Assembly (NCBI GenBank): GCA_947175695.1
Contig: CAMWNT010000010.1
Span: 1-39,059 of the forward strand
From: an uncultured Porphyromonadaceae bacterium
GTDB taxonomy: Bacteria; Bacteroidota; Bacteroidia; Bacteroidales; Muribaculaceae
Direction of reading: 5' to 3'
DNA: 39,059 nucleotides
A model generated the notes under the pieces. The model searched no databases. It was given only the letters and a program-made list of their open reading frames with translations, and was not told the origin of the DNA. The translations under genes and the position numbers were made by a program. Positions 1-28,984 of this stretch are shown here, piece after piece (position 1 is the first letter of the stretch; each line of letters opens with the position of its first letter).

Positions 1-709
1 GCATCCCCTGTTCAATAAACACCGCATTGAGATTCTCCATATTGGAGAGACATATAAGTTCATTGATAGAGGCGTAATCCCGGATATTGCCTTTGAGGTC
101 GGGATTGGCGTCACGCCACTGTTTTGCTGTCATGCCGAACATGGCCACATTCAGCACATCGGCTTCATTGGCATATATGATGCTTGCCTGAGCCTTTGTA
201 ATCTCGGCAGGTATTAGATTATGCTTGATGGCATCTGTGTGGATTCGATAGTTTATCTTCGACAGCTCACGTTTAGCAGTCCAGCCGATAAGTTTCTGTT
301 CCTCTTCCTTTAGACGTTGGAATTCCTTTACAATATAAACCTTGAACTCGGGGCTTATCCACATCGCAAACTCAAATGCAATGTCTTTATGGGCGTATGT
401 GCCTCCATAGCGTCCGGCTTTTGCCTGAACGGATATGGCATTAGTCCGGGCAACGAATTCTTTTACGCTTATCTTGAAACTGTTAAGTCCCGACTGATTT
501 CTAATTGTGGCGAATTCGCCATAATTAAAATTGGGATTATACACCTTCTCCCAGATTCCGATAAACTCCAAGGTATTACGATTACGAAGCCAGTCGGTAA
601 TGAAGAAATCTCCATCTTTAGCCCGTAACATATCGGTAAGGCAGACATAATCCTCTCCGTTGACTTTTAGGATGTTAACCTCAGTGTCTTTTACTATTAG
701 CTTCGCCAT
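1..709 (-). CDS. KilA-N domain protein, 3' end cut by window edge
   Basis: This gene is missing from the ORF track because it runs off the left edge. It was read by reverse-translating 1-709, from the ATG at 709-707, and stays open for 236 codons. The protein starts MAKLIVKDTEVNILKVNGED. Around residues 95-135 it carries the typical KilA-N core with RYGGTYAHKDIAFEFAMW followed by SPEFKVYIVKEFQRLK. KilA-N domains bind nucleic acid and are common in phages, prophages and mobile elements; the target here is unknown. The C-terminal half includes TAKQWRDANPD, seen in the Bacteroidetes members of this group. The gene is visibly more AT-rich than the murA or pcrA region, which suggests transfer. It has its own consensus promoter at 833-863 and a long leader (about 115 nt) covered by a candidate antisense transcript. 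Family assignment is firm; biological role is not. Confidence 0.85.
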   Translation of the reverse strand, partial: MAKLIVKDTEVNILKVNGEDYVCLTDMLRAKDGDFFITDWLRNRNTLEFIGIWEKVYNPNFNYGEFATIRNQSGLNSFKISVKEFVARTNAISVQAKAGRYGGTYAHKDIAFEFAMWISPEFKVYIVKEFQRLKEEEQKLIGWTAKRELSKINYRIHTDAIKHNLIPAEITKAQASIIYANEADVLNVAMFGMTAKQWRDANPDLKGNIRDYASINELICLSNMENLNAVFIEQGM

Positions 710-743
710 GTTGTTTTGTAATTGTATCGAAATCGCTACATTA

Positions 744-774
744 TTGTTTGTGTTGATAAAAAGCACTACTTTTG
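744..774 (+). promoter_or_regulatory. Bacteroidetes-type promoter reading rightwards into a terminator
   Basis: A TTG at 744-746 sits 20 bp before TACTTTTG at 767-774, matching the Bacteroidetes primary-sigma consensus (TTTG, 19-21 bp, TAnnTTTG). The predicted start is near 781. No open reading frame follows; transcription would run straight into the hairpin and T-run at 786-827. Confidence 0.55.
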
Positions 775-780
775 CAGTGT

Positions 781-827
781 TGATTCCCGGTAGCCCCTGT
801 ATATCAGGATATCGGGTTTCGTTTTTT
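781..827 (+). ncRNA. Candidate ~45-nt antisense RNA ending in an intrinsic terminator
   Basis: The predicted transcript from the 744-774 promoter would contain almost nothing but a hairpin and a T-tract. The outer stem is CCCGGTA (786-792) with TATCGGG (810-816, one G-T pair), the inner stem CCTG (796-799) with CAGG (805-808), followed by TTTCGTTTTTT (817-827). It lies opposite the first ~45 nt of the predicted KilA-N mRNA leader. Its existence is inferred from sequence only. Confidence 0.4.
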
Positions 828-832
828 CAATG

Positions 833-863
833 CAAAGGTAATCATTTTCACCGGATTGGACAA
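833..863 (-). promoter_or_regulatory. Promoter for the KilA-N gene
   Basis: On the minus strand, TTG (863-861) is followed after 20 bp by TACCTTTG (840-833), a perfect Bacteroidetes arrangement. Start is predicted near 826, giving a leader of about 115 nt before the ATG at 709. It faces the 744-774 promoter. Confidence 0.65.
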
Positions 864-28950: not shown

Positions 28951-28981
28951 TTGCAAAAATAGGCAAATTTTGTTAATTTTG
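28951..28981 (+). promoter_or_regulatory. alaS promoter
   Basis: TTG (28951-28953), 20 bp, TAATTTTG (28974-28981): start near 28988. It overlaps the divergent M23 promoter almost completely. Confidence 0.7.
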
Positions 28982-28984
28982 CAA
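28954..28984 (-). promoter_or_regulatory. M23-MerR promoter
   Basis: On the minus strand, TTG (28984-28982), 20 bp, TATTTTTG (28961-28954): start near 28947, about 57 nt before the ATG at 28890. Each promoter's -33 TTG adjoins the other promoter's -7 element. Confidence 0.7.

Follow-up and report, generated by a model that had tools for sequence, protein, structure and literature searches.

A predicted short hairpin RNA antisense to a KilA-N gene leader belongs to an RNA family linked to AbiF-fold proteins in Muribaculaceae

The KilA-N locus and its facing promoters

The window, which is the whole 39,059-nt stretch of DNA analysed here from an uncultured Muribaculaceae bacterium, opens within a KilA-N gene on the minus strand. 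The gene starts with an ATG at 709 and its product matches the KilA-N profile of Pfam (1e-25), the PADLOC candidate profile PDC-S22 (4e-120) and a PHROG transcriptional regulator (1e-60); related proteins are 267 aa long. The features of the locus are as follows.

2..709, minus strand: KilA-N gene, 236 aa within the window, truncated on its 3' side where the contig stops (Pfam, PADLOC and PHROG matches)
710..827, minus strand: predicted leader of the KilA-N mRNA, about 118 nt (start inferred from the promoter)
723..740, no strand: imperfect palindrome TGTATCGAAATCGCTACA, some 14 nt ahead of the KilA-N ATG
744..774, plus strand: short-RNA promoter, TTG-N20-TACTTTTG (consensus match)
779..827, plus strand: gene of the short RNA, about 48 nt between its predicted ends (covariance model R1 match at 778-830)
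786..816, plus strand: hairpin of the short RNA (fold, family alignment)
817..827, plus strand: U-tract TTTCGTTTTTT, predicted intrinsic terminator of the short RNA (sequence)
833..863, minus strand: facing promoter, predicted driver of the KilA-N mRNA (consensus; a similar block lies ahead of KilA-N genes without the RNA at loci L181, L182 and L275)

The plus-strand promoter is composed of TTG at 744-746, a 20-nt spacer and TACTTTTG at 767-774, and its minus-strand counterpart of TTG at 863-861, a 20-nt spacer and TACCTTTG at 840-833. Both fit the Bacteroidales consensus, and the pattern TTG-N20-TANNTTTG occurs seven times in the window, where shuffled sequences lead one to expect 0.1. Between the two promoters, CCCGGTA (786-792) pairs with TATCGGG (810-816), and the plus-strand RNA has a folding energy of -17.5 kcal/mol (z -4.0). 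All transcript starts and ends at this locus are predicted from the sequence. A sequence-only reading of this DNA had described two full-consensus promoters that face each other across a hairpin and a U-tract, which is confirmed by the sequence, the promoter statistics and the R1 match. The promoter-to-terminator transcript that it proposed is retained as a short hairpin RNA, with its length corrected from about 45 nt to a predicted 48 nt or so (about 779-827). The full complementarity of this RNA to the first part of the KilA-N leader also holds for the predicted transcripts; it covers the first 48 nt or so of the leader and lies about 70-118 nt away from the KilA-N start codon.

Two further elements were considered and rejected. 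A hairpin at 779-764 of the minus strand, within the KilA-N leader, looks like an attenuator; it is kept in L003 and is missing from L005 and L254, and the block 828-866 is not specific to KilA-N, a like block being found ahead of leuS in L185. This facing-promoter block recurs in the genus before other genes, both leuS and KilA-N genes that are without the RNA. The palindrome at 723-740 is possibly a KilA-N operator, and a related palindrome precedes the KilA-N gene of L037, which is without the RNA. Elsewhere in the window, at 28951-28984, a full-consensus promoter on one strand overlaps almost exactly with another on the opposite strand, and together they form a nearly palindromic bidirectional promoter.

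An uncatalogued short-RNA family and its Abi_2 partner

The region 712-866 was searched by blastn in 150 relatives, and matches to its promoter-to-terminator part were found at dozens of places, mostly not beside KilA-N genes. An alignment of 20 copies (A1), none of them KilA-N-linked, has the near-invariant core GTTGAWTCCCGGTAGCCCCTG-N4-6-TCAAGCTATCGGGTTTWGTTTTT and was used to build the covariance model R1. This model matches the window at 778-830 (68.1 bits, E 4.7e-14), and since it was built without KilA-N-linked copies, the window unit is not a chance arrangement. The window's own genome contains this one copy, and a cultured relative, Duncaniella muris (L035), has this unit as well. Among the genomes surveyed, which are mostly metagenome-assembled, R1 is positive in 35 of 91 from the genus (about 50 copies), in 65 of 247 from the family (14 of 30 genera) and in 6 of the 294 others in an order-wide draw of 295 genomes. 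Searches of phage and plasmid records did not match the RNA. Rfam searches at gathering and at loose E-value thresholds gave nothing meaningful (CrcZ and snoRNA matches fell far below the cut-off), and no description of this RNA was found in the open-access literature searched. The short RNA genes form a family that is so far uncatalogued. An IMG/VR viral contig (L274, 11057-11110) has a near-consensus solo copy together with its promoter but lacks an Abi_2 gene; if the contig is truly that of a phage, this copy is possibly a phage-borne antitoxin RNA.

The family consensus is a hairpin with a 9-bp stem (CCCGGUAGC/GCUAUCGGG) and the loop CCCUG...UCAA, which almost every Abi_2-linked copy retains while the stem pairs co-vary. 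Over 48 Abi_2-linked and distant copies, covariation involves 5 stem pairs and 14 double-changed cells, a level that none of 500 shuffles reached, and the paired share of stem cells is 99.4% compared with 20-45% in slid controls; the alignment used (A3) was fitted to the model, so this test leans towards structure. Compensated stems in distant copies are CCCGACAGU/ACUGUCGGG and CCCACUAAC/GUUAGUGGG. Over 33 Abi_2-linked copies the stem strands are 98-100% identical, against 51% for the promoter spacer and 29% for the downstream flank (flank identities at Abi_2 loci range over 29-52%), and stem identity at KilA-N loci is 63-73%. The median covariance score is 72.6 bits for Abi_2-linked copies, with members of the R1 training set removed, and 52.7 bits for KilA-N-linked copies (p 8e-4). 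Solo copies also score below Abi_2-linked ones, under the same removal (p 0.002). The RNA of almost every Abi_2-linked copy starts 4 nt past the -7 element, and its promoter has a perfect 9/9 consensus score in 35 of the 39 copies antisense to Abi_2. Conservation with compensatory changes had been named as support for a KilA-N control unit; the stem of the RNA family does co-vary, but high sequence conservation is found only at Abi_2 loci.

The RNA usually neighbours an Abi_2 gene coding for about 230 aa, which is antisense in 39 of 102 RNA copies and nearly always lies 54-73 nt from the RNA start. A same-strand Abi_2 gene is the minority arrangement, before the RNA in L238, L246, L250 and L251 and after it in L188. 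Abi_2 remnants are found beside other copies, and about a third of the copies (33 of 102) are without a recognisable Abi_2 neighbour. A perfect facing -7 element is present at 26 of the 39 antisense Abi_2 loci, where 0.2 would be expected, and at seven of the eight KilA-N loci. It occurs in none of the eight copies of a subtype in which any Abi_2 gene found nearby mostly shares the strand of the RNA.

The partner protein scores above the Pfam Abi_2 cut-off, is matched by the PADLOC profiles PD-T4-5 and AbiD, and has an invariant HEPN motif RNxxAxH (R168, N169, A172, H174). Its AlphaFold model (pLDDT 92) has as its best match in the protein data bank 8vz6, which is PbAbiF bound to its ncRNA (Foldseek probability 1.00, the next 0.15). 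Comparison of the model with 8vz6 gave a Z of 12.1 over 202 residues at 3.2 A, and the next structure a Z of 6.3. Going by this model, the partner protein has the AbiF fold, which only fold comparison detected; phmmer of the Abi_2 protein against the PDB sequences returned nothing. Abi_2 relatives were likewise absent from the viral contigs scanned.

Comparison with abiF RNAs and other RNA-controlled systems

The closest known relative is the type III toxin-antitoxin system of AbiF and the abiF RNA (RF03085), contrary to the earlier statement that no named system with this layout was known, though the published layout is not antisense. The RNA RCd22 of C. difficile neutralises the toxic HEPN RNase AbiFCd by direct binding (PMC12373285), and the hairpin RNA AbiFr neutralises PbAbiF, according to a review (PMC12737573). 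As in these systems, the R1 RNA is a short hairpin with a CCC...GGG stem and AGC/GCU pairs, it has its own promoter, and it adjoins an Abi_2/AbiF HEPN gene whose product is predicted to have the AbiF fold. Such a gene is adjacent in the RNA family at large but not at the window locus, where KilA-N occupies the position.

Several features set the R1 RNA apart from the abiF RNAs. Its stem is a continuous 9 bp, it is mostly antisense to the toxin gene rather than co-transcribed with it, and its partner toxin has about 230 aa rather than about 300. The order typical of abiF, with the RNA upstream and co-directional and a terminator between, is found in 1 of 102 copies (L188) against the 39 antisense ones. 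The 3' bulge of the RNA is inhibitory in the PbAbiF work, according to that review (PMC12737573), and the R1 family is without this bulge, which counts against an AbiF-type antitoxin role. RF03085 matched neither the window nor any of 18 related loci; in 61 relatives it gave 8 matches, all at places other than those matched by R1. Canonical RF03085 abiF RNAs are present in the same genus (L112-L119), mostly directly upstream of and co-directional with AbiF genes of about 300 aa, and several genomes of the genus carry both kinds of RNA at different loci. Because RF03085 does not match, the relation to the abiF RNA is one of analogy; with the missing bulge and the mostly antisense layout as further reasons, the R1 RNA is taken to work like, but is not filed under, RF03085.

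The antisense geometry also recalls type I toxin-antitoxin systems, in which the RNA is encoded opposite the leader of the toxin mRNA and is fully complementary to it. This geometry, with a facing promoter and predicted starts, is present at 26 of the 39 antisense Abi_2 loci. Unlike in type I systems, the partner is a HEPN RNase of about 230 aa (KilA-N in the window) and not a small hydrophobic membrane peptide, the RNA sequence is conserved, and the link to Abi_2 persists in same-strand layouts. The partner resembles the Abi_2 defence proteins PD-T4-5 and AbiD in matching their PADLOC profiles, and no description of an RNA partner for PD-T4-5 was found in the open-access literature searched. 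In CrePA, a KilA-N protein (CreP) is likewise held by an RNA, but CreA resembles a crRNA and guides repression by CRISPR-Cas, according to the same review (PMC12737573), and no CRISPR-like RNA was noted here.

KilA-N-linked copies and the role of the RNA

In the window, 69 nt separate the KilA-N start from that of the RNA, which is the geometry seen with Abi_2, and in the KilA-N-linked copies as a group the gene lies at 69-70 (or 51) nt. KilA-N is antisense in eight copies (the window, L003, L005, L224, L253, two in L254, and L259), and a ninth KilA-N-linked copy, L252, is at a contig edge. The KilA-N protein is one and the same in L005, L224 and L253, so there are fewer than eight independent cases. 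The RNA link is scattered over the KilA-N tree, with RNA-linked genes not grouped and at least four changes forced. Three tandem KilA-N genes of one genome (G185:C22, L254 and L275) come from three KilA-N clades and have one common promoter block. The copy in the window differs from the consensus by a C-to-A change in the GCU of the stem, which breaks one pair, and an A-to-G change in the UCAA of the loop. No short Abi_2 gene was found in the window's own genome, where the cognate gene could be missing because the assembly is 88% complete. The same genome holds an Abi_2-domain fragment with an in-frame TGA (G000:C25:24584-24772, L120) and further KilA-N fragments (G000:C140).

The sequence-only reading likened the locus to an antisense-RNA control unit for the KilA-N gene. 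In such a unit the short RNA would pair with the leader and repress a DNA-binding, possibly toxic protein in a type I-like manner. A conserved unit does recur ahead of other KilA-N genes of several lineages, mostly with a perfect facing promoter, cis-antisense RNAs require no conserved sequence, and CreP provides a KilA-N toxin under RNA-guided control according to the review (PMC12737573). The RNA was, however, expected upstream of most KilA-N homologues, and of the 80 close ones four have it antisense, one has it on the same strand and 75 are without it. At the G185 tandem genes it is antisense to the second and third, while the first has the promoter block and no RNA. In most KilA-N-linked copies other than that of the window the hairpin is weaker (-6 to -11 kcal/mol), the RNA promoter scores below 8/9 in three of the eight, and the complementarity is far from the start codon. 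Since the usual partner is Abi_2, most KilA-N homologues are without the RNA and conservation is high only at Abi_2 loci, a KilA-N control unit is not supported; antisense control of KilA-N draws no support from conservation and is possible but unlikely. An extended form of the idea holds that a common front end, consisting of the facing promoter and the antisense antitoxin-RNA gene, had its AbiF-type RNase swapped for KilA-N to give a working KilA-N toxin/antisense-RNA system, the parent RNA being type III-like in its action on the toxin protein and type I-like in its antisense action on the toxin mRNA; this is quite improbable.

A serious contender, though at somewhat less than even odds, is that recombination placed KilA-N behind the promoter and that the RNA gene in between is a decaying, non-functional relic. 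Stem and loop are relaxed at KilA-N loci, the terminator stems of L252 and L259 are broken, and the RNA is optional among the tandem KilA-N copies, but the window copy retains a perfect promoter, a stable hairpin and a U-tract, and the association recurs in several KilA-N lineages. It is doubtful that solo RNAs, including the one in the window, are kept by selection and would guard the cell against AbiF-type toxins of phages or mobile elements, or aid phages carrying them. Many of the 33 copies without a recognisable Abi_2 gene retain promoter and terminator, as the IMG/VR copy retains its promoter; the lower scores of solo copies are as expected for decay after toxin loss, and the window copy is altered in both stem and loop.

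The preferred reading, to which we give a probability of about three in four, is that the plus-strand unit of the window (744-827) is a complete small-RNA gene of an AbiF-type RNA antitoxin family, orphan here and slightly altered in stem and loop, and that any effect on KilA-N would be incidental. Counting against it are the lack of an RF03085 match, the missing 3' bulge, the roughly one third of copies that stand apart from any recognisable Abi_2 gene, and the 88% completeness of the window's own genome, from which a cognate Abi_2 gene may have dropped out. An orphan antitoxin-type RNA ahead of KilA-N is the simplest reading of the window copy. By analogy with the abiF RNAs, the family is concluded to be an AbiF-type RNA antitoxin of a new subclass with an antisense layout, and the RNA probably keeps an AbiF-type RNase harmless. 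A protein-inhibiting role as in AbiF systems is favoured by the conservation of stem and loop and by the Abi_2 link in both orientations, which points to action on the protein. The perfect facing -7 elements at antisense Abi_2 loci make it plausible that antisense pairing or transcript collision acts on the toxin mRNA as well.

At a standard Muribaculaceae locus, the promoter facing the RNA gene would drive the RNase gene, so that the RNA gene would lie antisense inside the RNase mRNA leader. An abundant hairpin RNA would bind the RNase and hold it inactive, as RCd22 and AbiFr do, and where the RNA is antisense the converging transcripts may further restrain the mRNA of the RNase. KilA-N takes the place of the RNase gene behind the facing promoter in the window and in a few relatives; whatever the RNA might do to KilA-N there, by antisense or by transcriptional interference, would be a side effect.

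Cas13 and its guide RNA have been proposed to descend from AbiF proteins and their RNAs (PMC12373285, PMC12737573). Another RNA subclass, which differs in structure, has a smaller AbiF protein and is laid out antisense, would provide a comparison point for the RNA control of the RNase. The orphan copies, those beside KilA-N included, suggest that antitoxin RNA genes may outlive or leave their toxin.
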